A stretch of 64,000 nt of DNA, taken from Crossaster papposus. Its lineage: Eukaryota; Echinodermata; Asteroidea; Velatida; Solasteridae. The notes beneath the pieces were generated by a model. The model did no database searches. It was not told where the DNA came from and saw nothing but the letters and a program-made list of their open reading frames with translations. The stretch lies in contig JBAIAA010000013.1 in the NCBI GenBank assembly GCA_037893245.1, positions 806,001-870,000 on the forward strand, given 5' to 3'. Below, piece by piece: positions 1 through 64,000 of the stretch; the first letter of the stretch is position 1, and each line of letters starts with the position of its first letter. A program made the translations under genes and the position numbers.

Positions 1-1559
1 GATTTCATTTTCATTAAAAATAGTTACGCAGAGTAGTGCAGCGGGAGCGTGATGGGCCCATAGCCCAGAGGTCCGAGGACCAAAACCTCGCTTTGCTAAC
101 TAGGTATTTTTGCTTCACTGCTATTCACATTTAATAAATATTGTAGAATGTTTTTAGAATGTCTGCTTTCATTTTGTTTGCATTTTCTAAATTTACATGA
201 GGCATAGTGGCGCAGTTGAAGCGTGCTGGGCCCATAACCCAGAGGTCCGAGGATCGAAACCTCGCTCTGCTAACAAGTTTTTGGTATGACATGAGGTACT
301 CGACTCGGAGTGACAAAGTAGACACTTTCTCGGTCAGTACCCGAGAGTTTGGTTGACCACAACCTCGGTCTGCTCAGGATAATTATTTCCTTGAAAGTGA
401 TTTTATTTTCATTACAAATAGTTACGCAGAGTGGTGCAGTGGGAAGCGTGATGGGCCCATAACCCAGAGGCCCGAGGACCGAAACCTCGCTCTGCAAACA
501 AGTTTTTGGTATGACATGAGGTACTCGACTCGGAGTGACAAAGTAGACACTTTCTTGGTCAGTACCCGAGAGTTTGGTTGACCACAACCTCGGTCTGCTC
601 AGGATAATTATTTCCTTGAAAGTGATTTCATTTTCATTACAAAAAGTTACGCAGAGTGGTGCAGTGGGAAGCGTGATGGGCCCATTACCCAGAGGCCCGA
701 GGACCGAAACCTCGCTCTGCTAAAAGGTATTTTTGCTTCACTGTTATTCAAATTTAATAATTATTTTAGAATGTTTTTAGAATGTCTGCTTTTATTTTGT
801 TTGTTGTTTTTCTAAATTTACATGAGGCATAGTGGCGCAGTGGAAGCTTGCTGGGCCTATAACCCAGAGTGCCGAGGATCAAAACCTCGTTCTGCTGCTA
901 ATAAGTTTTTGGTATGACTTGAAGTACTCGACTCAGAGTGACAAAGTAGACCCTTTCTTGGTCAGTAACCGAGAGTTTGGATGATCACAACCTCGGTCTG
1001 CTCAGGATAATTTTGTATTTGATAGGGATTTCATTTTCATTAAAAATAGTTACGCAGAGTAGTGCAGCGGGAGCGTGATGGGCCCATAGCCCAGAGGTCC
1101 GAGGACCAAAACCTCGCTTTGCTAAGTAGGTATTTTTGCTTCACTGCTATTCACATTTAATAAATATTGTAGAATGTTTTTAGAATGTCTGCTTTTTATT
1201 TTGTTTGCATTTTCTAAATTTACATGAGGCATAGTGGCGCAGTTGAAGCGTGCTGGGCCCATAACCCAGAGGTCCGAGGATCGAAACCTCGCTCTGCTAA
1301 CAAGTTTTTGGTATGACATGAGGTACTCGACTCGGAGTGACAAAGTAGACACTTTCTTGGTCAGTACCTGAGAGTTTGGTTGACCACAACCTCGGTCTGC
1401 TCAGGATAATTATTTCCTTGAAAGTGATTTCATTTTCATTACAAATAGTTACGCAGAGTGGTGCAATGGGAAGCGTGATGGGCCCATAACCCAGAGGCCC
1501 GAGGACCGAAACCTCGCTCTGCTAAAGAGGTATTTTTGCTTCACTGTTATTCAAATTTA
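1..1559 (+). repeat. Array segment 1, irregular, left of the retrotransposon
   Basis: Module order read from the sequence: D 27-98, A 201-272, E 304-375, B 425-497, extra E then B 650-722, C 826-897, F 932-1003, D 1053-1124, A 1228-1299, E 1331-1402, B 1452-1524. The spacer before the second A is one base longer than usual (an extra T in a T run). The spacer after the last B is cut at 1559 by the retrotransposon. The C copy here begins GGCATAG rather than the usual GGCATGG. Confidence 0.9.
498..722 (+). repeat. Extra 225-bp E-B sub-repeat 1
   Basis: After the B module at 425-497 the sequence continues with the trailer normally found after module A, a second E and a second B (650-722). The first B has CTGCAAAC at its end instead of CTGCTAAC. 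The join lies in the AACCTCGCTCTGC shared by the 3' ends of A and B. Confidence 0.85.
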
Positions 1560-1579
1560 TTATTATTATTATTATTATT
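1560..1579 (-). repeat. (TAA)n 3' tail of the LINE
   Basis: About six to seven TTA/ATT triplets on the + strand, which read as a (TAA)n or (AAT)n tail on the element's own strand. Such triplet tails occur at the 3' ends of some non-LTR retrotransposons and mark this as the 3' end. The neighbouring array sequence is also A/T rich, so the left boundary may be off by a few bases. Confidence 0.8.
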
Positions 1580-1971
1580 CGAAACGTTTATTTCCAAACT
1601 TTTCACAAGCAAGTTAGGTTAGATTTTTTAAATAAACAAAAAGAAATATGCGTAACTATTAATATTAAGAGCACAAAATCTGAAACAATAAACTAGAGAT
1701 TATTGAAGGGAGTGAACAGTTTGGGGCTGTTCAAATAAACCGAGGCTTGTAGAGAACAGCCTGACACAGACAATCATAAGACAGGCAATATACAAACGAT
1801 AGGAATTAACACGAACGAACGGACAAAGAACAAAAAAGACAAAACAAAACAAAACAATGGATGAGACAGTGGAGACTGAGACAGGGAGACAATTCCAATA
1901 AAGATAACAAGTTAGATATAGATTTCACATTGACACCATGCAGCAGAGCAGAGTAGAGCTAAGGAGGGAAG
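1580..1971 (-). other. 3' untranslated region of the LINE
   Basis: About 390 bp lie between the reverse transcriptase stop codon and the (TAA)n tail. I see no convincing coding content or tRNA-like module here. A short A-rich run of repeated AAAAC units lies near 1839-1856 on the + strand. It is unlike the satellite and is explained as the 3' end of the retrotransposon. Confidence 0.7.
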
Positions 1972-2946
1972 CTACGTTACATATTGTGACAGGAGCGCCT
2001 TTTTGTAAGACGATTTAAAACGACCCACAGACGACATTGTTCTAATATCATTGTCAATGGAGTTCCATAAACGAGGACCATAGAAACGGAGAGTAGATGC
2101 AGAATATAAGGTGCGGGTGAATGGAACATATAAATTGTGTCGGGATCTGGTGTTATATACGTGTATGCTTTGGACTGATGAGAAGAATGACGAGAAACTG
2201 TTGGGGAGAAGATTGCGTGCAAATTTGTACATGAATATCGCTGTGTGAAATTTCGTCAAGTCATTAAGAGTGAGAGTACGTAGCCTTGAAAATAAAGGTG
2301 CAGAGTGCTCCCGATAGTGTGAGTTAGTGCAAATACGAATAGCTCTTTTTTGCGTAATGTATAAAGAGTACAGCTTATTAGAGGACGTGTTTGACCAAAC
2401 AATATTACAATAGTTTAAGTAAGGGAGAATAAGTGAATTATAAAGCAAGAACAGGCATCCAGAGGGAAGCCATAAACGAAGTTTGGACAGAACACCGGTA
2501 TTGCGTGAGACTACATTTGTTACAGAGAAGATATGTTCGACCCAGGAGAGTTTATAGTCAAGAGTGACACCAAGAAATTTGACCGAGTCAACCCTTGTGA
2601 TGGAAATATTGTCAATTTTAACTGGAGGTAAGTCGAGATGTTGACGGGAAGAATCTTTGCTGAAGAAAATGAAGTTGGTTTTAGTCAGATTGAGAGAAAG
2701 TTTATTGGCCTTAAACCAAGATGAAACATTGACGAGTTCAGAGTTTAAGGTGTCGACCAGAGAAGAGACATTGGAGCTTGAGTGGAAAATGGTGGTGTCA
2801 TCAGCAAACAGAGTGAAATCTAAGATTTGGGAAGAGAAACATAGGTCATTAATGTAAATCAAGAAAAGAAGAGGACCAAGGATGGACCCTTGAGGGACCC
2901 CATGCTGAATTTCAAGTCGAGTAGAATCAGTATTCTTAATAGAATA
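1972..2946 (-). pseudogene. Reverse transcriptase C-terminal fragment of the LINE
   Basis: The frame is open from the stop at 1972 up to the truncated 5' end of the element, about 325 codons. A TTG at 2860-2862 would give 296 residues, but the real reading frame continues upstream through HGVPQGSILGPLLF (about 2863-2904), a reverse transcriptase palm block, so that TTG is not a natural start. Next come IYINDL and the catalytic FADD motif (about 19 residues after the TTG), then FLGVTLDYKLSW, the conserved block after the palm. The C-terminal region holds LPYLNYCNIVW, a basic segment with QKRAIRI, and GPRLWNSI near the end, typical of animal LINE polyproteins. The fingers part of the domain and the endonuclease are missing. 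There are no internal stops, which suggests a fairly recent insertion. It is not functional because it is only a fragment. Confidence 0.9.
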
Positions 2947-2952
2947 CTGATT
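2925..2952. repeat. Perfect 12-bp inverted repeat at the LINE 5' junction
   Basis: AATCAGTATTCT at 2925-2936 and AGAATACTGATT at 2941-2952 are exact reverse complements around a 4-bp centre (TAAT). The palindrome sits exactly where the truncated 5' end of the retrotransposon meets the array. It probably formed during integration by a short inverted or templated addition. It does not occur in the other spacers. Confidence 0.85.
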
Positions 2953-3250
2953 TAATAATTATTTTAGAATGTTTTTAGAATGTCTGCTTTTATTTTGTTT
3001 GTTGTTTTTCTAAATTTACATGAGGCATGGTGGCGCAGTGGAAGCTTGCTGGGCCTATAACCCAGAGTGCCGAGGATCAAAACCTCGTTCTGCTGCTAAT
3101 AAGTTTTTGGTATGACTTGAAGTACTCGACTCAGAGTGACAAAGTAGACCCTTTCTTGGTCAGTAACCGAGAGTTCGGATGATCACAACCTCGGTCTGCT
3201 CAGGATAATTTTGTATTTGATAGCGATTTCATTTTCATTAAAAATAGTTA

Positions 3251-3323
3251 CGCAGAGTGGTGCAGTGGGAAGCGTGATGGGCCCATAACCCAGAGGCCCG
3301 AGGACCGAAACCTCGCTCTGCTA
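3251..3323 (+). tRNA. B-type module in the D position
   Basis: The leader (TTTCATTTTCATTAAAAATAG) belongs to module D and follows F as normal, but from GTGGTGCAGTGGG onward the sequence is module B, ending with the module A trailer AACAAGTTTTT. The switch is near the 5' end of the module, in TTACGCAGAGT. It thus has both junctions of a recombinant unit. Confidence 0.75.
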
Positions 3324-3548
3324 ACAAGTTTTTGGTATGACATGAGGTACTCGACTCGGATTGACAAAGTAGACACTTTCTTGGTCAGTACCCGAGAGTT
3401 TGGTTGACCACAACCTCGGTCTGCTCAGGATAATTATTTCCTTGAAAGTGATTTCATTTTCATTACAAATAGTTACGCAGAGTGGTGCAGTGGGAAGCGT
3501 GATGGGCCCATTACCCAGAGGCCCGAGGACCGAAACCTCGCTCTGCTA
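3324..3548 (+). repeat. Extra 225-bp E-B sub-repeat 2
   Basis: Same structure after the B-type module at 3251. The E copy has CTCGGATTGAC instead of CTCGGAGTGAC, and the B copy (3476-3548) has CCCATTACCC, a change shared with the B at 650. Confidence 0.82.
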
Positions 3549-4862
3549 AAAGGTATTTTTGCTTCACTGTTATTCAAATTTAATAATTATTTTAGAATGT
3601 TTTTAGAATGTCTGCTTTTATTTTGTTTGTTGTTTTTCTAAATTTACATGAGGCATGGTGGCGCAGTGGAAGCTTGCTGGGCCTATAACCCAGAGTGCCG
3701 AGGATCAAAACCTCGTTCTGCTGCTAATAAGTTTTTGGTATGACTTGAAGTACTCGACTCAGAGTGACAAAGTAGACCCTTTCTTGGTCAGTAACCGAGA
3801 GTTTGGATGATCACAACCTTGGTCTGCTCAGGATAATTTTGTATTTGATAGGGATTTCATTTTCATTAAAAATAGTTACGCAGAGTAGTGCAGCGGGAGC
3901 GTGATGGGCCCATAGCCCAGAGGTCCGAGGACCAAAACCTCGCTTTGCTAAGTAGGTATTTTTGCTTCACTGCTATTCACATTTAATAAATATTGTAGAA
4001 TGTTTTTAGAATGTCTGCTTTTTATTTTGTTTGCATTTTCTAAATTTACATGAGGCATAGTGGCGCAGTTGAAGCGTGCTGGGCCCATAACCCAGAGGTC
4101 CGAGGATCGAAACCTCGCTCTGCTAACAAGTTTTTTGTATGACATGAGGTACTCGACTCGGAGTGACAAAGTAGACACTTTCTTGGTCAGTACCTGAGAG
4201 TTTGGTTGACCACAACCTCGGTCTGCTCAGGATAATTATTTCCTTGAAAGTGATTTCATTTTCATTACAAATAGTTACGCAGAGTGGTGCAATGGGAAGC
4301 GTGATGGGCCCATAACCCAGAGGCCCGAGGACCGAAACCTCGCTCTGCTAAAGAGGTATTTTTGCTTCACTGTTATTCAAATTTAATAATTATTTTAGAA
4401 TGTTTTTAGAATGTCTGCTTTTATTTTGTTTGTTGTTTTTCTAAATTTACATGAGGCATGGTGGCGCAGTGGAAGCTTGCTGGGCCTATAACCCAGAGTG
4501 CCGAGGATCAAAACCTCGTTCTGCTGCTAATAAGTTTTTGGTATGACTTGAAGTACTCGACTCAGAGTGACAAAGTAGACCCTTTCTTGGTCAGTAACCG
4601 AGAGTTCGGATGATCACAACCTCGGTCTGCTCAGGATAATTTTGTATTTGATAGGGATTTCATTTTCATTAAAAATAGTTACGCAGAGTAGTGCAGCGGG
4701 AGCGTAATGGGCCCATAGCCCAGAGGTCCGAGGACCAAAACCTCGCTTTGCTAACTAGGTATTTTTGCTTCACTGCTATTCACATTTAATAAATATTGTA
4801 GAATGTTTTTAGAATGTCTGCTTTCATTTTGTTTGCATTTTCTAAATTTACATGAGGCATAG

Positions 4863-4873
4863 TGGCGCAGTTG
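4863..4873 (+). promoter_or_regulatory. A box of module A, representative
   Basis: TGGCGCAGTTG fits the eukaryotic tRNA gene A-box consensus TRGYNNARNNG. The same box reads TGGTGCAGTGG in B, TGGCGCAGTGG in C and TAGTGCAGCGG in D, all within consensus. E and F have TGACAAAGTAG, which breaks it at the third base. Confidence 0.7.
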
Positions 4874-4905
4874 AAGCGTGCTGGGCCCATAACCCAGAGG
4901 TCCGA

Positions 4906-4916
4906 GGATCGAAACC
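4906..4916 (+). promoter_or_regulatory. B box of module A (TFIIIC site), representative
   Basis: GGATCGAAACC is the initiator-tRNA form of the B box. Among the modules only A keeps it whole; B reads GGACCGAAACC, C GGATCAAAACC and D GGACCAAAACC. In eukaryotes TFIIIC binds this element, so the array could hold a TFIIIC site at least every 802 bp. Confidence 0.7.
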
Positions 4917-4932
4917 TCGCTCTGCTAACAAG

Positions 4933-4937
4933 TTTTT
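4933..4937 (+). terminator. Pol III terminator (T5) after module A, representative
   Basis: Five T begin 6 nt after the discriminator base of module A. This spacing is typical for tRNA genes. Nearly every A copy keeps it. Copies after 4054 and 20316 have six T, and the copy after 53544 is broken to TTATT. Confidence 0.7.
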
Positions 4938-4958
4938 GGTATGACATGAGGTACTCGA

Positions 4959-5030
4959 CTCGGAGTGACAAAGTAGACACTTTCTTGGTCAGTACCCGAG
5001 AGTTTGGTTGACCACAACCTCGGTCTGCTC
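4959..5030 (+). pseudogene. Module E, degenerate tRNA-like relic, representative copy
   Basis: A 72-nt stretch lying where a third tRNA would fit. GAGTG at its 5' side and AACCTCGGTCTGCT at its 3' end match the corresponding ends of module A at 5 of 5 and 13 of 14 positions. The middle CTTGG-TCAGTAC-CCGAG can be read as an anticodon-like stem and loop. The internal promoter boxes are poor: the T arm reads GGTTGACCACAACC instead of a B box. No clean T4 run follows directly. I infer an old, decayed tRNA copy; the T arm has become a perfect 5-bp hairpin with a 4-nt loop. Confidence 0.55.
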
Positions 5031-5079
5031 AGGATAATTATTTCCTTGAAAGTGATTTCATTTTCATTACAAATAGTTA

Positions 5080-5152
5080 CGCAGAGTGGTGCAATGGGAA
5101 GCGTGATGGGCCCATAACCCAGAGGCCCGAGGACCGAAACCTCGCTCTGCTA
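5080..5152 (+). tRNA. Module B, initiator tRNA-Met-like (CAT), representative copy
   Basis: A 73-nt tRNA-like sequence, one base longer than A because the D loop is AGTGGGAA (AATGGGAA in this copy). The acceptor CGCAGAG pairs with CTCTGCT at six of seven positions; only C1:U72 fails. The anticodon loop is CCCATAA with CAT, but the outermost anticodon-stem pair is A:G. The T loop is ACCGAAA, so position 55 is C where T is nearly invariant, and the B box reads GGACCGAAACC. The A box TGGTGCAGTGG fits the consensus. It follows the E relic by 49 bp. It may be transcribed, but the T55 change makes a stable tRNA doubtful. Confidence 0.6.
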
Positions 5153-5256
5153 AAGAGGTATTTTTGCTTCACTGTTATTCAAATTTAATAATTATTTTAG
5201 AATGTTTTTAGAATGTCTGCTTTTATTTTGTTTGTTGTTTTTCTAAATTTACATGA
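5153..5256. other. A/T-rich spacer between module B and module C
   Basis: About 104 bp of mostly A/T sequence with the direct repeat AGAATGTTTTT / AGAATGTCTG. It has a close relative of similar length between D and the next A; half-1 spacers read TTTGCATTTTC near the module and half-2 spacers read TTTGTTGTTTTTC. I see no gene. It supplies the upstream flank of A and C. The retrotransposon inserted in one copy of this spacer. Confidence 0.75.
5161..5165 (+). terminator. Pol III terminator (T5) after module B, representative
   Basis: Five T begin 8 nt after the end of module B, in the sequence GAGGTATTTTTGC. The run is kept in nearly all B copies that are followed by a C module. It is replaced by the module A trailer (AACAAGTTTTT) where an extra E-B block follows. 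Confidence 0.65.
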
Positions 5257-5328
5257 GGCATGGTGGCGCAGTGGAAGCTTGCTGGGCCTATAACCCAGAG
5301 TGCCGAGGATCAAAACCTCGTTCTGCTG
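5257..5328 (+). tRNA. Module C, initiator-like tRNA with TAT anticodon, representative copy
   Basis: A 72-nt relative of module A whose anticodon loop is CCTATAA, so the anticodon is TAT (5289-5291) instead of CAT. On paper TAT would read the Ile codon ATA. The anticodon stem CTGGG/CCCAG is intact and the D loop AGTGGAA keeps both G18 and G19. Lesions: D-stem pair 11:24 is C:T (GCTT instead of GCGT), the T loop is ATCAAAA (G57 to A), the variable region is AGTGC, and the acceptor GGCATGG/TTCTGCT has a mismatch and several G:T pairs. The 3' end is followed by an extra GCTA. I regard it as a diverged pseudogene unless expression is shown. Confidence 0.5.
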
Positions 5329-5335
5329 CTAATAA

Positions 5336-5341
5336 GTTTTT
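5336..5341 (+). terminator. Pol III terminator (T5) after module C, representative
   Basis: A run of five T in AATAAGTTTTTGG, about 8 nt after the module end. The same run is kept in most C copies. Some units have GTTGTTGG (for example near 35614, 59235 and 60659), which breaks it. Confidence 0.6.
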
Positions 5342-5362
5342 GGTATGACTTGAAGTACTCGA

Positions 5363-5434
5363 CTCAGAGTGACAAAGTAGACCCTTTCTTGGTCAGTAAC
5401 CGAGAGTTCGGATGATCACAACCTCGGTCTGCTC
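5363..5434 (+). pseudogene. Module F, degenerate tRNA-like relic, representative copy
   Basis: The half-2 counterpart of E, 72 nt. It shares GAGTGACAAAGTAGAC and the 3' end AACCTCGGTCTGCTC with E. Differences include TCAGAG for TCGGAG, GTAACCGAGAG for GTACCCGAGAG, and GGATGATCACAACC for GGTTGACCACAACC, which breaks the E hairpin. A TTTT run follows about 9 nt later. The B box is not recognisable. It is an old tRNA-like relic by its similarity to E. Confidence 0.55.
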
Positions 5435-5483
5435 AGGATAATTTTGTATTTGATAGGGATTTCATTTTCATTAAAAATAGTTA

Positions 5484-5555
5484 CGCAGAGTAGTGCAGCG
5501 GGAGCGTAATGGGCCCATAGCCCAGAGGTCCGAGGACCAAAACCTCGCTTTGCTA
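5484..5555 (+). tRNA. Module D, initiator tRNA-Met-like (CAT), representative copy
   Basis: A 72-nt half-2 counterpart of B. The anticodon loop is CCCATAG with CAT; the usual A38 is G. The acceptor CGCAGAG/CTTTGCT pairs at six of seven positions with one G:T. The T loop ACCAAAA has lost both T55 and G57, so the B box GGACCAAAACC is the weakest of the four main modules. The A box TAGTGCAGCGG still fits the consensus. In this copy GCGTAATGGG replaces GCGTGATGGG. Most likely a pseudogene. Confidence 0.5.
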
Positions 5556-5563
5556 ACTAGGTA

Positions 5564-5568
5564 TTTTT
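5564..5568 (+). terminator. Pol III terminator (T5) after module D, representative
   Basis: Five T in AGGTATTTTTGC, 8 nt after the module end, matching the position after module B. The run is present in almost every D copy; near 36641 and 51041 the preceding bases read AGGAATTTTTG but the five T remain. Confidence 0.6.
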
Positions 5569-5881
5569 GCTTCACTGCTATTCACATTTAATAAATATTG
5601 TAGAATGTTTTTAGAATGTCTGCTTTCATTTTGTTTGCATTTTCTAAATTTACATGAGGCATAGTGGCGCAGTTGAAGCGTGCTGGGCCCATAACCCAGA
5701 GGTCCGAGGATCGAAACCTCGCTCTGCTAACAAGTTTTTGGTATGACATGAGGTACTCGACTCGGAGTGACAAAGTAGACACTTTCTTGGTCAGTACCCG
5801 GAAGTTTGGTTGACCACAACCTCAGTCTGCTCAGGATAATTATTTCCTTGAAAGTGATTTTATTTTCATTACAAATAGTTA

Positions 5882-5953
5882 CGCAGAGTGGTGCAGTGGG
5901 AAGCGTGATGGGCCCATACCCAGAGGCCCGAGGACCGAAACCTCGCTCTGCTA
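5882..5953 (+). pseudogene. Module B with one base lost in the anticodon loop
   Basis: CCCATACCCAG replaces CCCATAACCCAG, so the anticodon loop has six bases. Its 3' end runs directly into the module A trailer (AACAAGTTTTT) and an extra E-B block. It cannot form a normal anticodon arm. Confidence 0.75.
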
Positions 5954-6177
5954 ACAAGTTTTTGGTATGACATGAGGTACTCGACTCGGAGTGACAAAGT
6001 AGACACTTTCTTGGTCAGTACCGAGAGTTTGGTTGACCACAACCTCGGTCTGCTCAGGATAATTATTTCCTTGAAAGTGATTTCATTTTCATTACAAATA
6101 GTTACGCAGAGTGGTGCAGTGGGAAGCGTGATGGGCCCATAACCCAGAGGCCCGAGGACCGAAACCTCGCTCTGCTA
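5954..6177 (+). repeat. Extra 225-bp E-B sub-repeat 3 (one base shorter)
   Basis: Follows the damaged B at 5882-5953. The E copy has GTACCGAGAG with one C lost. The second B begins at 6105 and is normal. This block accounts for the 1025-bp step between A modules at 5658 and 6683. Confidence 0.82.
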
Positions 6178-9100
6178 AAGAGATATTTTTGCTTCACTGT
6201 TATTCAAATTTAATAATTATTTTAGAATGTTTTTAGAATGTCTGCTTTTATTTTGTTTGTTGTTTTTCTAAATTTACATGAGGCATGGTGGCGCAGTGGA
6301 AGCTTGCTGGGCCTATAACCCAGAGTGCCGAGGATCAAAACCTCGTTCTGCTGCTAATAAGTTTTTGGTATGACTTGAAGTACTCGACTCAGAGTGACAA
6401 AGTAGACCCTTTCTTGGTCAGTAACCGAGAGTTCGGATGATCACAACCTCGGTCTGCTCAGGATAATTTTGTATTTGATAGGGATTTCATTTTCATTAAA
6501 AATAGTTACGCAGAGTAGTGCAGCGGGAACGTGATGGGCCCATAGCCCAGATGTCCGAGGACCAAACCCTCGCTTTGCTAACTAGGTATTTTTGCTTCAC
6601 TGCTATTCACATTTAATAAATATTGTAGAATGTTTTTAGAATGTCTGCTTTCATTTTGTTTGCATTTTCTAAATTTACATGAGGCATAGTGGCGCAGTTG
6701 AAGCGTGCTGGGCCCATAACCCAGAGGTCCGAGGATCGAAACCTCGCTCTGCTAACAAGTTTTTGGTATGACATGAGGTACTCGACTCGGAGTGACAAAG
6801 TAGACACTTTCTTGGTCAGTACCCGAGAGTTTGGTTGACCACAACCTCGGTCTGCTCAGGATAATTATTTCGTTGAAAGTGATTTCATTTTCATTACAAA
6901 TAGTTACGCAGAGTGGTGCAGTGGGAAGCGTGATGGGCCCATAACCCAGAGGCCCGAGGACCGAAACCTCGCTCTGCTAAAGAGGTATTTTTGCTTCACT
7001 GTTATTCAAATTTAATAATTATTTTAGAATGTTTTTAGAATGTCTGCTTTTATTTTGTTTGTTGTTTTTCTAAATTTACATGAGGCATGGTGGCGCAGTG
7101 GAAGCTTGCTGGGCCTATAACCCAGAGTGCCGAGGATCAAAACCTCGTTCTGCTGCTAATAAGTTTTTGGTATGACTTGAAGTACTCGACTCAGAGTGAC
7201 AAAGTAGACCCTTTCTTGGTCAGTAACCGAGAGTTCGGATGATCACAACCTCGGGCTGCTCAGGATAATTTTGTATTTGATAGGGATTTCATTTTCATTA
7301 AAAATAGTTACGCAGAGTAGTGCAGCGGGAGCGTGATGGGCCCATAGCCCAGAGGTCCGAGGACCAAAACCTCGCTTTGCTAACTAGGTATTTTTGCTTC
7401 ACTGCTATTCACATTTAATAAATATTGTAGAATGTTTTTAGAATGTCTGCTTTCATTTTGTTTGCATTTTCTAAATTTACATGAGGCATAGTGGCGCAGT
7501 TGAAGCGTGCTGGGCCCATAACCCAGAGGTCCGAGGATCGAAACCTCGCTCTGCTAACAAGTTTTTGGTATGACATGAGGTACTCGACTCGGAGTGACAA
7601 AGTAGACACTTTCTTGGTCAGTACCCGAGAGTTTGGTTGACCACAACCTCGGTCTGCTCAGGATAATTATTTCCTTGAAAGTGATTTCATTTTCATTACA
7701 AATAGTTACGCAGAGTGGTGCAGTGGGAAGCGTGATGGGCCCATTACCCAGAGGCCCGAGGACCAAAACCTCGCTCTGCTAAAAGGTATTTTTGCTTCAC
7801 TGTTATTCAAATTTAATAATTATTTTAAAATATTTTTAGAATGTCTGCTTTTATTTTGTTTGTTGTTTTTCTAAATTTACATGAGGCATGGTGGCGCAGT
7901 GGAAACTTGCTGGGCCTATAACCCAGAGTGCCGAGGATCAAAACCTCGTTCTGCTGCTAATACGTTTTGGGTATGACTTGAAGTACTCGACTCAGAGTGA
8001 CAAAGTAGACCCTTTCTTGGTCAGTAACCGAGAGTTCGGATGATCACAACCTCGGTCTGCTCAGGATAATTTTGTATTTGATAGGGATTTCATTTTCATT
8101 AAAAATAGTTACGCAGAGTAGTGCAGCGGGAGCGTGATGGGCCCATAGCCCAGAGGTCCGAGGACCAAACCCTCGCTTTGCTAACTAGGTATTTTTGCTT
8201 CACTGCTATTCACATTTAATAAATATTGTAGAATGTTTTTAGAATGTCTGCTTTCATTTTGTTTGCATTTTCTAAATTTACATGAGGCATAGTGGCGCAG
8301 TTGAAGCGTGCTGGGCCCATAACCCAGAGGTCCGAGGATCGAAACCTCGCTCTGCTAACAAGTTTTTGGTATGACATGAGGTACTCGACTCGGAGTGACA
8401 AAGTAGACACTTTCTTGGTCAGTACCCGAGAGTTTGGTTGACCACAACCTCGGTCTGCTCAGGATAATTATTTCGTTGAAAGTGATTTCATTTTCATTAC
8501 AAATAGTTACGCAGAGTGGTGCAGTGGGAAGCGTGATGGGCCCATAACCCAGAGGCCCGAGGACCGAAACCTCGCTCTGCTAAAGAGGTATTTTTGCTTC
8601 ACTGTTATTCAAATTTAATAATTATTTTAGAATGTTTTTAGAATGTCTGCTTTTATTTTGTTTGTTGTTTTTCTAAATTTACATGAGGCATGGTGGCGCA
8701 GTGGAAGCTTGCTGGGCCTATAACCCAGAGTGCCGAGGATCAAAACCTCGTTCTGCTGCTAATAAGTTTTTGGTATGACTTGAAGTACTCGACTCAGAGT
8801 GACAAAGTAGACCCTTTCTTGGTCAGTAACCGAGAGTTCGGATGATCACAACCTCGGGCTGCTCAGGATAATTTTGTATTTGATAGGGATTTCATTTTCA
8901 TTAAAAATAGTTACGCAGAGTAGTGCAGCGGGAGCGTGACGGGCCCATAGCCCAGAGGTCCGAGGACCAAAACCTCGCTTTGCTAACTAGGTATTTTTGC
9001 TTCACTGCTATTCACATTTAATAAATATTGTAGAATGTTTTTAAAATGTCTGCTTTCATTTTGTTTGCATTTTCTAAATTTACATGAGGCATAGTGGCGC

Positions 9101-44744: not shown

Positions 44745-44816
44745 GGCAGAGTGGCGCAGTTGAAGCGTGCTGGGCCCATAACCCAGAGGTCCGAGGATCG
44801 AAACCTCGCTCTGCTA
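44745..44816 (+). tRNA. Best-paired module A variant, copy 2
   Basis: Same sequence as the copy at 42749 and exactly 1996 bp downstream of it, including the following E module with TACTGGACTC and GACAACGTAG. It arose by duplication of the larger block, not independently. Confidence 0.72.
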
Positions 44817-45940: not shown

Positions 45941-46012
45941 GGCATGGTGGCGCAGTGGAAGCTTGCTGGGTCTATAACCCAGAGTGCCGAGGATCGAAAC
46001 CTCGCTCTGCTA
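45941..46012 (+). pseudogene. Recombinant C/A tRNA-like module
   Basis: It starts as module C (GGCATGGTGG, GAAGCTTGC, TCTATAACCC, AGAGTGCC) and ends as module A (GAAACCTCGCTCTGCTAACAAG). The switch lies within GCCGAGGATC in the T arm. The E module that follows carries the TACTGGACTC and GACAACG markers of the best-paired A variant. The fusion shortens the local array by half a unit. Confidence 0.85.
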
Positions 46013-47936: not shown

Positions 47937-48008
47937 GGCAGAGTGGCGCAGTTGAAGCGTGCTGGGCCCATAACCCAGAGGTCCGAGGATCGAAACCTCG
48001 CTCTGCTA
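47937..48008 (+). tRNA. Best-paired module A variant, copy 3
   Basis: Third copy of the GGCAGAG variant, 3192 bp after the second. The flanking modules carry the same marker variants as the other two copies. Five T follow 6 nt after the end. Confidence 0.72.
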
Positions 48009-53543: not shown

Positions 53544-53615
53544 GGCATAGTGGCGCAGTTGAAGCGTGCTGGGCCCATAACCCAGAGGTCCGAGGATCGA
53601 AACCTCGCTCTGCTA
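53544..53615 (+). tRNA. Module A with a broken terminator
   Basis: The tRNA-like part is the ordinary module A, but the trailer reads AACAAGTTATTGG, so the usual five T are lost. The upstream spacer has TTAATCAATATT. If transcribed, Pol III would have to stop further on. Confidence 0.65.
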
Positions 53616-54345
53616 ACAAGTTATTGGTATGACATGAGGTACTCGACTCGGAGTGACAAAGTAGACACTTTCTTGGTCAGTACCCGAGAGTTTGGTTGAC
53701 CACAACCTCGGTCTGCTCAGGATAATTATTTCCTTGAAAGTGATTTCATTTTCATTACAAATAGTTACGCAGAGTGGTGCAGTGGGAAGCGTGATGGGCC
53801 CATAACCCAGAGGCCCGAGGACCGAAACCTCGCTCTGCTAAAGAGGTATTTTTGCTTCACTGTTATTCAAATTTAATAATTATTTTAGAATGTTTTTAGA
53901 ATGTCTGCTTTTATTTTGTTTGTTGTTTTTCTAAATTTACATGAGGCATGGTGGCGCAGTGGAAGCTTGCTGGGCCTATAACCCAGAGTGACAAGGATCA
54001 AAACCTCGTTCTGCTGCTAATAAGTTTTTGGTATGACTTGAAGTACTCGACTCAGAGTGACAAAGTAGACCCTTTCTTGGTCAGTTACCGAGAGTTCGGA
54101 TGATCACAACCTCGGTCTGCTCAGGATAATTTTGTATTTGATAGGGATTTCATTTTCATTAAAAATAGTTACGCAGAGTAGTGCAGCGGGAGCGTGATGG
54201 GCCCATAGCCCAGAGGTCCGAGGACCAAAACCTCGCTTTGCTAACTAGGTATTTTTGCTTCACTGCTATTCACATTTAATAAATATTGTAGAATGTTTTT
54301 AGAATGTCTGCTTTCATTTTGTTTGCATTTTCTAAATTTACATGA

Positions 54346-54417
54346 GGCATAGTGGCGCAGTTGAAGCGTGCTGGGCCTATAACCCAGAGTGCCGAGGATC
54401 AAAACCTCGTTCTGCTG
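54346..54417 (+). pseudogene. Recombinant A/C tRNA-like module
   Basis: It starts as module A (GGCATAGTGGCGCAGTTGAAGCG) and continues from the anticodon loop as module C (CTATAACCCAGAGTGCC, ATCAAAACC, GTTCTGCTGC). The switch lies in TGCTGGGCC, just before the anticodon, and the anticodon is TAT. It is the mirror product of the C/A fusion and deletes the E-B part of the half-unit. Confidence 0.85.
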
Positions 54418-57400
54418 CTAAAAAGTTTTTGGTATGACTTGAAGTACTCGACTCAGAGTGACAAAGTAGACCCTTTCTTGGTCAGTAACCGAGAGTTCGG
54501 ATGATCACAACCTCGGTCTGCTCAGGATAATTTTGTATTTGATAGGGATTTCATTTTCATTAAAAATAGTTACGCAGAGTAGAGCAGCGGGAGCGTGATG
54601 GGCCCATAGCCCAGAGGTCCGAGGACCAAAACCTCCCTTTGCTAACTAGGTATTTTTGCTTCACTGCTATTCACATTTAATAAATATTGTAGAATGTTTT
54701 TAGAATGTCTGCTTTCATTTTGTTTGCATTTTCTAAATTTACATGAGGCATAGTGGCGCAGTTGAAGCGTGCTGGGCCCATAACCCAGAGGTCCGAGGAT
54801 CGAAACCTCGCTCTGCTAACAAGTTTTTGGTATGACATGAGGTACTCGACTCGGAGTGACAAAGTATACACTTTCTTGGTCAGTACCCGAGAGTTTGGTT
54901 GACCACAACCTCGGTCTGCTCAGGATAATTATTTCCTTGAAAGTGATTTCATTTTCATTACAAATAGTTACGCAGAGTGGTGCAGTGGGAAGCGTGATGG
55001 GCCCATAACCCAGAGGCCCGAGGACCGAAACCTCGCTCTGCTAAAGAGGTATTTTTGCTTCACTGTTATTCAAATTTAATAATTATTTTAGAATGTTTTT
55101 AGAATGTCTGCTTTTATTTTGTTTGTTGTTTTTCTAAATTTACATGAGGCATGGTGGCGCAGTGGAAGCTTGCTGGGCCTATAACCCAGAGTTCCGAGGA
55201 TCAAAACCTCGTTCTGCTGCTAATAAGTTTTTAGTATGACTTGAAGTACTCGACTCAGAGTGACAAAGTAGACCCTTTCTTGGTCAGTAACCGAGAGTTC
55301 GGATGATCACAACCTCGGTCTGCTCAGGATAATTTTGCATTTGATAGGGATTTCATTTTCATTAAAAATAGTTACGCAGAGTAGTGCAGCAGGAGCGTGA
55401 TGGGCCCATAGCCCAGAGGTCCGAGGACCAAAACCTCGCTTTGCTAACTAGGTATTTTTGCTTCACTGCTATTCACATTTAATCAATATTGTAGAATGTT
55501 TTTAGAATGTCTGCTTTCATTTTGTTTGCATTTTCTAAATTTACATGAGGCATAGTGGCGCAGTTGAAGCGTGCTGGGCCCATAACCCAGAGGTCCGAGG
55601 ATCGAAACCTCGCTCTGCTAACAAGTTTTTGGTATGACATGAGGTACTCGACTCGGAGTGACAAAGTAGACACTTTCTTGGTCAGTACCCGAGAGTTTGG
55701 TTGACCACAACCTCGGTCTGCTCAGGATAATTATTTCCTTGAAAGTGATTTCATTTTCATTACAAATAGTTACGCAGAGTGGTGCAGTGGGAAGCGTGAT
55801 GGGCCCATAACCCAGAGGCCCGAGGACCGAAACCTCGCTCTGCTAAAGAGGTATTTTTGCTTCACTGTTATTCAAATTTAATAATTATTTTAGAATGTTT
55901 TTAGAATGTCTGCTTTTATTTTGTTTGTTGTTTTTCTAAATTTACATGAGGCATGGTGGCGCAGTGGAAGCTTGCTGGGCCTATAACCCAGAGTGACAAG
56001 GATCAAAACCTCGTTCTGCTGCTAATAAGTTTTTGGTATGACTTGAAGTACTCGACTCAGAGTGACAAAGTAGACCCTTTCTTGGTCAGTTACCGAGAGT
56101 TCGGATGATCACAACCTCGGTCTGCTCAGGATAATTTTGTATTTGATAGGGATTTCATTTTCATTAAAAATAGTTACGCAGAGTAGTGCAGCGGGAGCGT
56201 GATGGGCCCATAGCCCAGAGGTCCGAGGACCAAAACCTTGCTTTGCTAACTAGGTATTTTTGCTTCACTGCTATTCACATTTAATAAATATTGTAGAATG
56301 TTTTTAGAATGTCTGCTTTCATTTTGTTTGCATTTTCTAAATTTACATGAGGCATAGTGGCGCAGTTGAAGCGTGCTGGGCCCATAACCCAGAGGTCCGA
56401 GGATCGAAACCTCGCTCTGCTAACAAGTTTTTGGTATGACATGAGGTACTCGACTCGGAGTGACAAAGTATACACTTTCTTGGTCAGTACCCGAGAGTTT
56501 GGTTGACCACAACCTCGGTCTGCTCAGGATAATTATTTCCTTGAAAGTGATTTCATTTTCATTACAAATAGTTACGCAGAGTGGTGCAGTGGGAAGCGTG
56601 ATGGGCCCATAACCCAGAGGCCCGAGGACCGAAACCTCGCTCTGCTAAAGAGGTATTTTTGCTTCACTGTTATTCAAATTTAATAATTATTTTAGAATGT
56701 TTTTAGAATGTCTGCTTTTATTTTGTTTGTTGTTTTTCTAAATTTACATGAGGCATGGTGGCGCAGTGGAAGCTTGCTGGGCCTATAACCCAGAGTTCCG
56801 AGGATCAAAACCTCGTTCTGCTGCTAATAAGTTTTTAGTATGACTTGAAGTACTCGACTCAGAGTGACAAAGTAGACCCTTTCTTGGTCAGTAACCGAGA
56901 GTTCGGATGATCACAACCTCGGTCTGCTCAGGATAATTTTGCATTTGATAGGGATTTCATTTTCATTAAAAATAGTTACGCAGAGTAGTGCAGCAGGAGC
57001 GTGATGGGCCCATAGCCCAGAGGTCCGAGGACCAAAACCTCGCTTTGCTAACTAGGTATTTTTGCTTCACTGCTATTCACATTTAATCAATATTGTAGAA
57101 TGTTTTTAGAATGTCTGCTTTCATTTTGTTTGCATTTTCTAAATTTACATGAGGCATAGTGGCGCAGTTGAAGCGTGCTGGGCCCATAACCCAGAGGTCC
57201 GAGGATCGAAACCTCGCTCTGCTAACAAGTTTTTGGTATGACATGAGGTACTCGACTCGGAGTGACAAAGTAGACACTTTCTTGGTCAGTACCCGAGAGT
57301 TTGGTTGACCACAACCTCGGTCTGCTCAGGATAATTATTTCCTTGAAAGTGATTTCATTTTCATTACAAATAGTTACGCAGAGTGGTGCAGTGGGAAGCG

Positions 57401-58353
57401 TGATGGGCCCATAACCCAGAGGCCCGAGGACCGAAACCTCGCTCTGCTAAAGAGGTATTTTTGCTTCACTGTTATTCAAATTTAATAATTATTTTAGAAT
57501 GTTTTTAGAATGTCTGCTTTTATTTTGTTTGTTGTTTTTCTAAATTTACATGAGGCATGGTGGCGCAGTGGAAGCTTGCTGGGCCTATAACCCAGAGTGA
57601 CAAGGATCAAAACCTCGTTCTGCTGCTAATAAGTTTTTGGTATGACTTGAAGTACTCGACTCAGAGTGACAAAGTAGACCCTTTCTTGGTCAGTTACCGA
57701 GAGTTCGGATGATCACAACCTCGGTCTGCTCAGGATAATTTTGTATTTGATAGGGATTTCATTTTCATTAAAAATAGTTACGCAGAGTAGTGCAGCGGGA
57801 GCGTGATGGGCCCATAGCCCAGAGGTCCGAGGACCAAAACCTTGCTTTGCTAACTAGGTATTTTTGCTTCACTGCTATTCACATTTAATAAATATTGTAG
57901 AATGTTTTTAGAATGTCTGCTTTCATTTTGTTTGCATTTTCTAAATTTACATGAGGCATAGTGGCGCAGTTGAAGCGTGCTGGGCCCATAACCCAGAGGT
58001 CCGAGGATCGAAACCTCGCTCTGCTAACAAGTTTTTGGTATGACATGAGGTACTCGACTCGGAGTGACAAAGTGGACACTTTCTTGGTCAGTACCCGAGA
58101 GTTTGGTTGACCACAACCTCGGTCTGCTCAGGATAATTATTTCCTTGAAAGTGATTTCATTTTCATTACAAATAGTTAAGCAGAGTGGTGCAGTGGGAAG
58201 CGTGATGGGCCCATAACCCAGAGGCCCGAGGCCCGAAACCTCGCTCTGCTAAAGAGGTATTTTTGCTTCACTGTTATTCAAATTTAATAATTATTTTAGA
58301 ATGTTTTTAGAATGTCTGCTTTTATTTTGTTTGCATTTTCTAAATTTACATGA

Positions 58354-58425
58354 GGCATAGTGGCGCAGTTAAAGCGTGCTGGGCCCATAACCCAGAGGTC
58401 CGAGGATCGAAACCTCGCTCTGCTA
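58354..58425 (+). tRNA. A-type module in the C position
   Basis: This A module (with TTAAAGCG instead of TTGAAGCG) lies where C is expected after the B at about 58179. It is followed by a mixed E/F relic: GACATGAAGTACTCGACTCAG then ACCCTTTC. So A sequence was pasted into a half-2 context by conversion or double crossover. The preceding spacer switches from half-2 to half-1 type near TTATTTTGTTTGC. Confidence 0.75.
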
Positions 58426-59850
58426 ACAAGTTTTTGGTATGACATGAAGTACTCGACTCAGAGTGACAAACTAGACCCTTTCTTGGTCAGTAACCGAGAG
58501 TTCGGATGATCACAACCTCGGTCTGCTCAGGATAATTTTGTATTTGATAGGGATTTCATTTTCATTAAAAATAGTTACGCAGAGTAGTGCAGCGGGAGCG
58601 TGATGGGCCCATAGCCCAGACGTCCGAGGACCAAAACCTCGCTTTGCTAACTAGGTATTTTTGCTTCACTGCTATTCACATTTAATAAATATTGTAGAAT
58701 GTTTTTATAATGTCTGCTTTCATTTTGTTTGCATTTTCTAAATTTACATGAGGCATAGTGGCGCAGTTGAAGCGTGCTGGGCCCATAACCCAGAAGTCCG
58801 AGGATCGAAACCTCGCTCTGCTAACAAGTTTTTGGTATGACATGAGGTACTTGACTCGGAGTGACAAAGTAGACACTTTCTTGGTCAGTACCCGAGAGTT
58901 TGGTTGACCACAACCTCGGTCTGCTCAGGATAATTATTTCCTTGAAAGTGATTTCATTTTCATTACAAATAGTTACGCAGAGTGGTGCAGTGGGAAGCGT
59001 GATGGGCCCATAACCCAGAGGCCCGAGGACCGAAACCTCGCTCTGCTAAAGAGGTATTTTTGCTTCACTGTTATTCAAATTTAATAATTATTTTAGAATG
59101 TTTTTAGAATGTCTGCTTTTATTTTGTTTGTTGTTTTTCTAAATTTACATGAGGCATGGTGGCGCAGTGGAAGCTTGCTGGGCCTATAACCCAGAGTGCC
59201 GAGGATCAAAACCTCGTTCTGCTGCTAATAAGTTGTTGGTATGACTTGAAGTACTCGACTCAGAGTGACAAAGTAGACCCTTTCTTGGTCAGTAACCGAG
59301 AGTTCGGATGATCACAACCTCGATCTGCTCAGGATAATTTTGTATTTGATAGGGATTTCATTTTCATTAAAAATAGTTACGCAGAGTAGTGCAGCGGGAG
59401 CGTGATGGGCCCATAGCCCAGAGGTCCGAGGACCAAAACCTCGCTTTGCTAACTAGGTATTTTTGCTTCACTGCTATTCACATTTAATAAATATTGTAGA
59501 ATGTTTTTAGAATGTCTGCTTTCATTTTGTTTGCATTTTCTAAATTTACATGAGGCATAGTGGCGCAGTTGAAGCGTGCTGGGCCCATAATCCAAAGGTC
59601 CGAGGATCGAAACCTCGCTCTGCTAACAAGTTTTTGGTATGACATGAGGTACTCGACTCGGAGTGACAAAGTAGACACTTTCTTGGTCAGTACCCGAGAG
59701 TTTGGTTGACCACAACCTCGGTCTGCTCAGGATAATTATTTCCTTGAAAGTGATTTCATTTTCATTACAAATAGTTACGCAGAGTGGTGCAGTGGGAAGC
59801 GTGATGGGACCATAACCCAGAGGCCCGAGGACCGAAACCTCGCTCTGCTA

Positions 59851-60075
59851 ACAAGTTTTTGGTATGACATGAGGTACTCGACTCGGAGTGCCAAAGTAGA
59901 CACTTTCTTGGTCAGTACCCGAGAGTTTGGTTGACCACAACCTCAGTCTGCTCAGGATAATTATTTCCTTGAAAGTGATTTCATTTTCATTACAAATAGT
60001 TACGCAGAGTGGTGCAGTGGGAAGCGTGATGGGCCCATTACCCAGAGGCCCGAGGACCGAAACCTCGCTCTGCTA
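59851..60075 (+). repeat. Extra 225-bp E-B sub-repeat 4
   Basis: Lies between the B at 59778 (with GGGACCATAAC) and the B at 60003 (with CCCATTACCC). The E copy has GAGTGCCAAAG and CCTCAGTCTG. It is followed by an A module behind a mixed spacer. Confidence 0.82.
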
Positions 60076-60176
60076 AAAGGTATTTTTGCTTCACTGTTAT
60101 TCAAATTTAATAATTATTTTAGAATGTTTGTAGAATGTCTGCTTTAATTTTGTTTGCATTTTCTAAATTTACATGA

Positions 60177-60248
60177 GGCATAGTGGCGCAGTTGAAGCGT
60201 GCTGGGCCCATAACCCAGAGGTCCGAGGATCGAAACCTCGCTCTGCTA
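60177..60248 (+). tRNA. Module A behind a hybrid half-2/half-1 spacer
   Basis: The spacer starts as the B-to-C type (CAAATTTAATAATTATTTT) and becomes the D-to-A type (TTTGCATTTTC) after CTGCTTTAATTTTG. The A module itself is ordinary. It is followed by an E with GACTTGAAGTACTCGACTCGG, an F-to-E mix. Equivalent copies begin at 61602 and 63829, the last running into the window end. Confidence 0.75.
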
Positions 60249-61275
60249 ACAAGTTTTTGGTATGACTTGAAGTACTCGACTCGGAGTGACAAAGTAGACA
60301 CTTTCTTGGTCAGTACCCGAGAGTTTGGTTGACCACAACCTCGGTCTGCTCAGGATAATTATTTTCTTGAAAGTGATTTCATTTTCATTACAAATAGTTA
60401 CGCAGAGTGGTGCAGTGGGAAGCGTGATGGGCCCATAACCCAGAGGCCCGAGGACCGAAACCTCGCTCTGCTAAAGAGGTATTTTTGCTTCACTGTTATT
60501 CAAATTTAATAATTATTTTAGAATGTTTTTAGAATGTCTGCTTTTATTTTGTTTGTTGTTTTTCTAAATTTACATGAGGCATGGTGGCGCAGTGGAAGCT
60601 TGCTGGGCCTATAACCCAGAGTGCCGAGGATCAAAACCTCGTTCTGCTGCTAATAAGTTGTTGGTATGACTTGAAGTACTCGACTCAGAGTGACAAAGTA
60701 GACCCTTTCTTGGTCAGTAACCGAGAGTTCGGATGATCACAACCTCGATCTGCTCAGGATAATTTTGTATTTGATAGGGATTTCATTTTCATTAAAAATA
60801 GTTACGCAGAGTAGTGCAGCGGGAGCGTGATGGGCCCATAGCCCAGAGGTCCGAGGACCAAAACCTCGCTTTGCTAACTAGGTATTTTTGCTTCACTGCT
60901 ATTCACATTTAATAAATATTGTAGAATGTTTTTAGAATGTCTGCTTTCATTTTGTTTGCATTTTCTAAATTTACATGAGGCATAGTGGCGCAGTTGAAGC
61001 GTGCTGGGCCCATAATCCAAAGGTCCGAGGATCGAAACCTCGCTCTGCTAACAAGTTTTTGGTATGACATGAGGTACTCGACTCGGAGTGACAAAGTAGA
61101 CACTTTCTTGGTCAGTACCCGAGAGTTTGGTTGACCACAACCTCGGTCTGCTCAGGATAATTATTTCCTTGAAAGTGATTTCATTTTCATTACAAATAGT
61201 TACGCAGAGTGGTGCAGTGGGAAGCGTGATGGGACCATAACCCAGAGGCCCGAGGACCGAAACCTCGCTCTGCTA

Positions 61276-61500
61276 ACAAGTTTTTGGTATGACATGAGGT
61301 ACTCGACTCGGAGTGCCAAAGTAGACACTTTCTTGGTCAGTACCCGAGAGTTTGGTTGACCACAACCTCAGTCTGCTCAGGATAATTATTTCCTTGAAAG
61401 TGATTTCATTTTCATTACAAATAGTTACGCAGAGTGGTGCAGTGGGAAGCGTGATGGGCCCATTACCCAGAGGCCCGAGGACCGAAACCTCGCTCTGCTA
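61276..61500 (+). repeat. Extra 225-bp E-B sub-repeat 5
   Basis: Copy of the block at 59851, exactly 1425 bp later, with the same GAGTGCCAAAG and CCATTACCC variants. The B modules begin at 61203 and 61428. Confidence 0.82.
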
Positions 61501-63502
61501 AAAGGTATTTTTGCTTCACTGTTATTCAAATTTAATAATTATTTTAGAATGTTTTTAGAATGTCTGCTTTAATTTTGTTTGCATTTTCTAAATTTACATG
61601 AGGCATAGTGGCGCAGTTGAAGCGTGCTGGGCCCATAACCCAGAGGTCCGAGGATCGAAACCTCGCTCTGCTAACAAGTTTTTGGTATGACTTGAAGTAC
61701 TCGACTCGGAGTGACAAAGTAGACACTTTCTTGGTCAGTACCCGAGAGTTTGGTTGACCACAACCTCGGTCTGCTCAGGATAATTATTTTCTTGAAAGTG
61801 ATTTCATTTTCATTACAAATAGTTACGCAGAGTGGTGCAGTGGGAAGCGTGATGGGCCCATAACCCAGAGGCCCGAGGACCGAAACCTCGCTCTGCTAAA
61901 GAGGTATTTTTGCTTCACTGTTATTCAAATTTAATAATTATTTTAGAATGTTTTTAGAATGTCTGCTTTTATTTTGTTTGTTGTTTTTCTAAATTTACAT
62001 GAGGCATGGTGGCGCAGTGGAAGCTTGCTGGGCCTATAACCCAGAGTGCCGAGCATCAAAACCTCGTTCTGCTGCTAATAAGTTGTTGGTATGACTTGAA
62101 GTACTCGACTCAGAGTGACAAAGTAGACCCTTTCTTGGTCAGTAACCGAGAGTTCGGATGATCACAACCTCGATCTGCTCAGGATAATTTTGTATTTGAT
62201 AGGGATTTCATTTTCATTAAAAATAGTTACGCAGAGTAGTGCAGCGGGAGCGTGATGGGCCCATAGCCCAGAGGTCCGAGGACCAAAACCTCGCTTTGCT
62301 AACTAGGTATTTTTGCTTCACTGCTATTCACATTTAATAAATATTGTAGAATGTTTTTAGAATGTCTGCTTTCATTTTGTTTGCATTTTCTAAATTTACA
62401 TGAGGCATAGTGGCGCAGTTGAAGCGTGCTGGGCCCATAATCCAAAGGTCCGAGGATCGAAACCTCGCTCTGCTAACAAGTTTTTGGTATGACATGAGGT
62501 ACTCGACTCGGAGTGACAAAGTAGACACTTTCTTGGTCAGTACCCGAGAGTTTGGTTGACCACAACCTCGGTCTGCTCAGGATAATTATTTCCTTGAAAG
62601 TGATTTCATTTTCATTACAAATAGTTACGCAGAGTGGTGCAGTGGGAAGCGTGATGGGACCATAACCCAGAGGCCCGAGGACCGAAACCTCGCTCTGCTA
62701 AAGAGGTATTTTTGCTTCACTGTTATTCAAATTTAATAATTATTTTAGAATGTTTTTAGAATGTCTGCTTTTATTTTGTTTGTTGTTTTTCTAAATTTAC
62801 ATGAGGCATGGTGGCGCAGTGGAAGCTTGCTGGGCCTATAACCCAGAGTGCCGAGGATCAAAACCTCGTTCTGCTGTTAATAAATTTTTGGTATGACTTG
62901 AAGTACTCGACTCAGAGTGACAAAGTAGACCCTTTCTTGGTCAGTAACCGAGAGTTCGGATGATCACAACCTCGATCTGCTCAGGATAATTTTGTATTTG
63001 ATAGGGATTTCATTTTCATTAAAAATAGTTACGCAGAGTAGTGCAGCGGGAGCGTGATGGGCCCATAGCCCAGAGGTCCGAGGACCAAAACATCGCTTTG
63101 CTAACTAGGTATTTTTGCTTCACTGCTATTGACATTTAATAAATATTATAGAATGTTTTTAGAATGTCTGCTTTCATTTTGTTTGCATTTTCTAAATTTA
63201 CATGAGGCATAGTGGCGCAGTTGAAGCGTGCTAGGCCCATAACCCAGAGGTCCGAGGATCGAAACCTCGCTCTGCTAACAAGTTTTTGGTATGACATGAG
63301 GTACTCGACTCGGAGTGACAAAGTAGACACTTTCTTGGTCAGTACCCGAGAGTTTGGTTGACCACAACCTCGGTCTGCTCAGGATAATTATTTCCTTGAA
63401 AGTGATTTTATTTTCATTACAAATAATTACGCAGAGTGGTGCAGTGGGAAGCGTGATGGGCCCATAACCCAGAGGCCCGAGGACCGAAACCTCGCTCTGC
63501 TA

Positions 63503-63727
63503 ACAAGTTTTTGGTATGACATGAGGTACTCGACTCGGAGTGCCAAAGTAGACACTTTCTTGGTCAGTACCCGAGAGTTTGGTTGACCACAACCTCAGTC
63601 TGCTCAGGATAATTATTTCCTTGAAAGTGATTTCATTTTCATTACAAATAGTTACGCAGAGTGGTGCAGTGGGAAGCGTGATGGGCCCATTACCCAGAGG
63701 CCCGAGGACCGAAACCTCGCTCTGCTA
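63503..63727 (+). repeat. Extra 225-bp E-B sub-repeat 6
   Basis: Same variants in E and in the second B (63655) as the previous two copies, but the first B (63430) has the normal GGGCCCATAAC and the leader AAATAATTACG. So the block was joined to a different B copy. Confidence 0.82.
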
Positions 63728-64000
63728 AAAGGTATTTTTGCTTCACTGTTATTCAAATTTAATAATTATTTTAGAATGTTTTTAGAATGTCTGCTTTAAT
63801 TTTGTTTGCATTTTCTAAATTTACATGAGGCATAGTGGCGCAGTTGAAGCGTGCTGGGCCCATAACCCAGAGGTCCGAGGATCGAAACCTCGCTCTGCTA
63901 ACAAGTTTTTGGTATGACTTGAAGTACTCGACTCGGAGTGACAAAGTAGACACTTTCTTGGTCAGTACCCGAGAGTTTGGTTGACCACAACCTCGGTCTG

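Follow-up and report, generated by a model that had tools for sequence, protein, structure and literature searches.

The array and its repeating unit

The DNA examined here is a stretch of 64,000 nucleotides from the asteroid Crossaster papposus (assembly GCA_037893245.1, contig JBAIAA010000013.1, positions 806,001 to 870,000), referred to below as the window, and it is occupied by a tandem array of modules that resemble the initiator methionine transfer RNA (tRNA-Met). The entire window is a single head-to-tail array in one orientation, and its sole interruption is a 1,390-bp insert of a long interspersed nuclear element (LINE). With the LINE and its edges (1555-2951) set aside for the identity figures, the remaining 62,603 bases are 99.27% identical to an 802-bp consensus. 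This alignment, which allowed jumps, contained 454 mismatches, 26 small indels, and 18 register jumps, and identity to the consensus did not fall below 97% in any 200-bp segment (step 50) outside the excluded part. Inverted 30-mers of the unit were searched for within the window and none were found. Such a long array of one unit (62.6 kb, one orientation) is what is expected of satellite DNA. Both ends of the window lie inside the array, with the first base at unit position 603 and the last at 172. Since neither edge is in view, the length seen here is a lower bound. A preliminary description made from the sequence alone had proposed an initiator-like array that fills the window and exceeds 64 kb, and both statements hold, the LINE excepted.

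Each unit contains six modules in the order A-d-B-C-g-E. By best-match assignment, 471 modules were counted (A 79, d 85, B 86, C 74, g 74, E 73). The number of A modules is the same as that given earlier, and the near-canonical modules (classes A, B, C, and E), previously estimated at roughly 300, amount to 312. The intervals from one A module to the next are exactly 802 bp in 51 of 78 cases, and the regular order is kept at 795-803 bp in 64 of 78. The 14 irregular intervals comprise half-unit changes (398-399 and 1,196-1,205 bp), a 225-bp duplication (623, 1,025, and 1,027 bp), and a single 2,826-bp interval, which also holds the LINE. The modules pair as A/C, B/E, and d/g, so that the unit is a dimer of two 401-bp halves that differ by about 10%, and the dimeric unit described before is confirmed.

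Identity and decay of the modules

The relationship of the modules to tRNA was supported by two programs. ARAGORN reported 51 tRNAs in the window (50 Met, 1 Ile), all on the + strand, and none in any of 20 dinucleotide shuffles of the window. Rfam gave 201 matches above the gathering threshold, and the 150 of these that were listed were all RF00005 (tRNA) on the + strand. In the example unit at 4054..4855, four matches exceeded the threshold (A, B, C, and E), and the unit contains tRNA-derived sequence, as tRNA-derived tandem repeats do. The class consensus sequences agreed with an insect-type initiator tRNA-Met at 68/72 (A), 66/72 (B), 61/72 (C), 61/72 (E), 49/72 (g), and 44/72 (d) positions, and the A consensus agreed with the human initiator at 62/72, neither of these references being the host's own sequence. 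The initiator hallmarks that were scored are A1:U72, A54, A60, and three G:C pairs in the anticodon stem. Of the 312 near-canonical modules, 307 have A54 and A60, and 295 have all three G:C pairs (an alignment count that includes loop-deleted B copies). Position 1 is an A in only one of the 312, so that the A1:U72 hallmark is lacking. Modules d and g gave no Rfam match at E<=10 in the one unit tested, and each aligns to A better than all 5,000 of its shuffles (Table 1). On account of this similarity, all six modules appear to be of initiator-tRNA descent, with d and g decayed past recognition by tRNA models, which agrees with the six modules per dimer noticed earlier. Folding neither backs nor refutes this descent: none of seven modules adopted the standard cloverleaf as its minimum-energy fold (z -1.93 to -0.24). 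Two modules at half-unit junctions (45941 and 54346) are A/C chimeras, and the one at 45941 is the tRNA-Ile of ARAGORN.

The modules look like pseudogenes on several grounds that can be read from their sequences. The intact cloverleaf of an initiator gene, with the full set of 20 pairs, is found in only 4 of 312 near-canonical modules, all of them in class A. The anticodon of the C modules is TAT in 74/74, and in the consensus of classes B, C, and E, both the T-loop and box B are altered. In 7 of 86 B modules, all between 31 and 49 kb, a 7-bp deletion has taken out the anticodon. These copies lie at 31370, 32967, 34564, 42974, 44970, 46166, and 48162, and the deletion was spread via nested repeats. 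The units are thus composed of decayed modules and not of the intact genes of a functional tRNA-gene array.

The rate of change in the modules was compared with that in the linkers. Between the consensus sequences of the two half-units, 20 of 215 module sites differ vs 19 of 183 linker sites, which indicates that after dimer formation the modules evolved no slower than the spacers. The comparisons of variable sites, unit differences, and flanks are based on 66 units of 790-805 bp from which irregular intervals were dropped; two of these units are probably bounded by chimeric modules (64 are regular by the final assignment). Outside CpG, the share of variable sites is not lower in near-canonical modules than in linkers, either for G/C (41/139 vs 33/89, p 0.25) or for A/T (13/118 vs 28/272, p 0.86). 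The linkers have a mean diversity of 0.0062-0.0194 per region, and the four near-canonical modules one of 0.0154-0.0197. In class A, variable sites were seen at 14/40 stem and 5/32 loop positions (p 0.105), which, if anything, speaks against constraint. No double-sided compensatory change occurred among 75 distinct variants, in which 26 stem cells were broken. CpG transitions were found at 18 of 52 CpG C/G sites vs 64 of 288 sites elsewhere (p 0.077), and this is suggestive only as a sign of methylation.

Nested repeats and recombination

The 66 units differ by 1.6% on average (0-3.7%). Neighbouring units in this list differ by 1.50% and next-but-one units by 1.16%. Exact repeats reach 2,993 bp at a spacing of 3,192, and others of 1,141-1,833 bp occur at spacings of 1,597, 1,603, 1,604, 1,996, 2,406, and 1,425. 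The higher-order repetition is therefore real, but it is patchy and has no single period, a qualification to the nested repeats that had been noted before. Together with the homogenisation of the units, it is the pattern of a satellite. Differences between units (gaps counted) are not uniform along the window; they are higher at 28801-37000 (mean 2.3%) and 42001-50000 (2.0%) than in six other zones (0.5-1.2%).

Among the 18 register jumps, 12 are by a half-unit (398-401 bp) and 6 are by 225 bp. The latter represent one recurring junction inside the T-arm, where B sequence passes into A sequence across 16 or 19 identical bases. The module is all that A and B have in common, and at this junction the tRNA module itself must therefore have served as recombination homology at least once. 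The copies are confined to the first 6 kb (three) and the last 5 kb (three) of the window, which may reflect either common descent of the outer layers or transfer. Nine distinct junction types underlie the 18 jumps, and four of them fall within near-canonical modules, which make up approximately 36% of the unit. With these proportions, no enrichment is claimed, and the modules are not regarded as recombination hot spots.

Comparison of the flanks separates two levels of relatedness. The A-C and B-E flanks are clearly related, as none of 1,000 shuffles aligned as well, whereas those of A and B show no detectable relationship (as good an alignment in 74 of 1,000 shuffles upstream, and in 740 in the other comparison). 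Among the eight class pairs tested, 26 shuffles per 1,000 were as good for the A-d upstream flanks and 67 for the B-d downstream flanks. The modules therefore seem to have kept or gained their likeness independently of the flanks, at a time before the 401-bp unit doubled, which would suit a former gene cluster.

The LINE is flanked by a target-site duplication, ATTTA, at 1555-1559 and 2950-2954, and ends 3' in (TTA)n. Its reverse-transcriptase frame is open throughout its extent (325 residues), which suggests a recent insertion. Its 5' end holds a short palindrome with the arms AGTATTC/GAATACT. A search of viral contigs with the LINE protein produced 18 pattern matches, of which none were confirmed.

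Table 1. Principal features of the window (positions counted from its first base)
Feature	Position	Strand	Evidence or remark
Array left of the LINE	1..1559	+	modules, path to 802-bp consensus
225-bp junction, class B into class A (example)	480..496	+	also at 3306, 5936, 59833, 61258, 63485
5'-truncated LINE (non-LTR retrotransposon, reverse transcriptase)	1560..2949	-	PF00078, E 4.1e-15
Array right of the LINE, continuing past the window end	2950..64000	+	modules, path to 802-bp consensus
Regular 802-bp unit, order A-d-B-C-g-E (example)	4054..4855	+	
Module A, initiator tRNA-Met-like, anticodon CAT	4054..4125	+	Rfam tRNA, 49.8 bits; ARAGORN
Module d, degenerate, A-like beyond 5,000 shuffles	4157..4228	+	class consensus z 7.2; no Rfam match
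Module B, initiator-like, CAT, one added D-loop base	4278..4350	+	Rfam tRNA, 38.1 bits
Module C, initiator-like, anticodon TAT	4455..4526	+	Rfam tRNA, 35.5 bits
Module g, degenerate counterpart of d	4560..4631	+	class consensus z 9.8; no Rfam match
Module E, initiator-like counterpart of B	4682..4753	+	Rfam tRNA, 32.4 bits
B module with 7-bp anticodon deletion (example)	31370..31435	+	
A copy with all 20 cloverleaf pairs	42749..42820	+	others at 44745, 47937, 49534
Nested higher-order repeat	43003..49187	+	2,993-bp exact copies from 43003 and 46195

Origin of the array

The array is probably satellite DNA of tRNA-pseudogene origin that was derived from an initiator-tRNA cluster and amplified by unequal crossing-over. 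It might have started as a small group of initiator tRNA-Met genes in tandem, with three tRNA modules in 401 bp, which then lost constraint. The 401 bp would have doubled to the 802-bp unit, the halves of which drifted about 10% apart. The unit would finally have been amplified and held approximately 98% uniform through unequal crossing-over and gene conversion. Unequal crossing-over is inferred as the driver because of the footprints left by register jumps (of about 400 bp and 225 bp) and nested repeats, and the array presumably yields no useful initiator tRNA. Three age layers can be distinguished in one array, namely, modules that resemble each other but not in their flanks, half-units that diverge by about 10%, and units that differ by about 1.6%. 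If this history is correct, the array shows a route from a tRNA gene cluster to a higher-order satellite. Decayed copies of tRNA genes are a rare source of satellites, but not an unheard-of one. There is also a practical aspect, as satellites of this type can inflate the tRNA counts of eukaryotic genomes: 64 kb alone give 51 tRNAs with ARAGORN and 201 with Rfam.

Several observations weigh against a pseudogene satellite. The A modules keep an unaltered initiator T-loop in 79/79 copies and an unaltered box B in 78/79. At least four T occur within 16 nt 3' of 307 of the 312 near-canonical modules (A 78/79, B 86/86, C 70/74, E 73/73); such T-runs also stand behind g in 74/74 and behind d in 2/85. 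The counts of T-runs and of box B are not independent, because the copies are homogenised. Beside the 26 broken stem cells, 18 have changed and yet remain paired, and 7 consensus mismatches have become pairs. Finally, the strong resemblance of modules A and B does not detectably extend to their flanks, which would fit conservation or repeated module conversion at an earlier stage. The retained box B of class A and the T-runs make some engagement of RNA polymerase III (Pol III) or its factor TFIIIC possible, perhaps as an inherited side effect.

The T-loops, box B sequences, and T-runs of class A could indicate a working tandem cluster of initiator-tRNA genes, in which class A represents the genes and the other classes are relics. 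Class A keeps the CAT anticodon in 79/79 copies, those at 42749, 44745, and 47937 share the top Rfam score in the window among the matches listed (55.3 bits), and dosage clusters of tRNA genes are described in the published accounts consulted (PMC11067881, PMC2652664). Nevertheless, the class A consensus is mismatched at 5:68, pairing is complete in only 4 of 79 A copies, and the divergence and variability of the modules carry no sign of constraint. Eukaryotic initiator tRNAs carry A1:U72, but position 1 is a G in 79/79 A modules. For a working cluster, the case is thus an unlikely one.

The same signals could be kept for another purpose. As a Pol III/TFIIIC platform, the modules, class A above all, might bind TFIIIC or yield a non-translating initiator-like RNA, and the array might then be kept, for instance, for a role in chromosome organisation or as a sink for initiator-tRNA maturation or binding factors. 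The box B of class A and the T-runs agree with this idea, and a human tRNA tandem repeat is presented as a possible boundary element in the source cited (PMC4041453). However, box B is altered in classes B, C, and E, and the modules lack any sign of constraint relative to the linkers, which leaves a platform improbable.

As a third possibility, the satellite might derive from a short interspersed nuclear element (SINE) that had an initiator-tRNA head and was multiplied in tandem. SINE-derived satellites are reported in squamates (PMC10702118, as far as its available text goes), and modules without common flanks are what separate retroposition events might leave. In this array, however, the modules reach the tRNA 3' end and are followed by T-runs and not by the body of a SINE, neither a tail nor a target-site duplication was noticed beside the modules of the unit, and among the matches listed, no exact match between the unit and the only LINE of the window exceeds 12 bases. 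A SINE origin is consequently quite improbable. That a shorter locus was inflated by mis-assembly, as exact repeats of up to 2,993 bp might suggest, is highly improbable, given that the 66 units differ by up to 3.7%, that the distribution of variants, deletions, and register jumps is uneven, and that the LINE with its target-site duplication occurs at one place only.

Comparison with known systems

A comparison of one unit with phage sequences returned 11 records that matched in part. Eight were from Campylobacter phages (18% cover), two of which have a tRNA-Met annotated at that place, and the other three matches were weak and short. Three plasmid records matched at 8-9% cover. These matches are read as tRNA similarity and not as relatives of the array. 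The linker pattern and the initiator T-arm pattern had no match in viral contigs, and the d-module pattern had none in the genome contigs searched.

The preliminary description had also inferred that the satellite is novel. In this general form, the claim is only partly supported, because tRNA-related tandem repeats have already been published, as have SINE-derived satellites and tandem tRNA arrays (PMC10702118, PMC11067881, as far as the texts available for them go). What stands is narrower: the literature searched, which lacked most subscription papers, showed no satellite whose unit has six initiator-derived modules.

Among the closest systems in kind are tandem repeats with tRNA-related segments. 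According to the available part of one account, PolIII/TAN of the newt Cynops pyrrhogaster, OAX of Xenopus, and Rana/polIII are tandem repeats of this type, and PolIII/TAN is reported to be transcribable in vitro (PMC10702118). Like the array described here, PolIII/TAN is a tandem repeat family with tRNA-like sequence, but its unit is approximately 360 nt and, judging by the reference list of that account, is tied to tRNA-Glu, whereas the present unit has six initiator tRNA-Met-like modules in 802 bp and nested repeats (PMC10702118). OAX, or satellite I, is likewise a tandem repeat, with a central segment that is said to be tRNA-derived; it has one such segment per unit, in contrast to six modules that fill just over half of the unit here (PMC10702118). 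Both comparisons were made by description. The SINE-derived satellites of squamates contain tRNA-derived sequence in the units of some families, but these units are parts of known SINEs, and no link to a SINE was shown for the 802-bp unit (PMC10702118).

Another group is formed by tandem arrays of tRNA genes. As described in the available texts, such arrays occur in Hydractinia and Nematostella and are called unusual outside Entamoeba (PMC11067881); for Nematostella, more than 17,000 tRNA genes and pseudogenes are given, 89% of them clustered (PMC2888827). These cnidarian arrays also consist of many evenly spaced tandem tRNA sequences in animals, but they include tRNAs for each amino acid, whereas the present array has a single isotype, mostly decayed, in a higher-order unit (PMC11067881, PMC2888827). 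The Entamoeba arrays, which are long, run head to tail, and have homogenised units of up to five tRNA genes, resemble it in architecture; by the account available, they carry almost all tRNA genes of the organism, in contrast to the initiator-derived, pseudogene-like modules found here (PMC2652664). The human tRNA variable number tandem repeat at 1q23.3 is a macrosatellite of 9-43 units with several tRNA genes per unit, as far as it is described in the cited source, and in this it is comparable to the Crossaster array (PMC4041453). Its units, however, are 7.3 kb long and contain five tRNA genes of four isotypes (Leu, Gly twice, Glu, and Asp), as opposed to six modules of initiator descent in 802 bp (PMC4041453).

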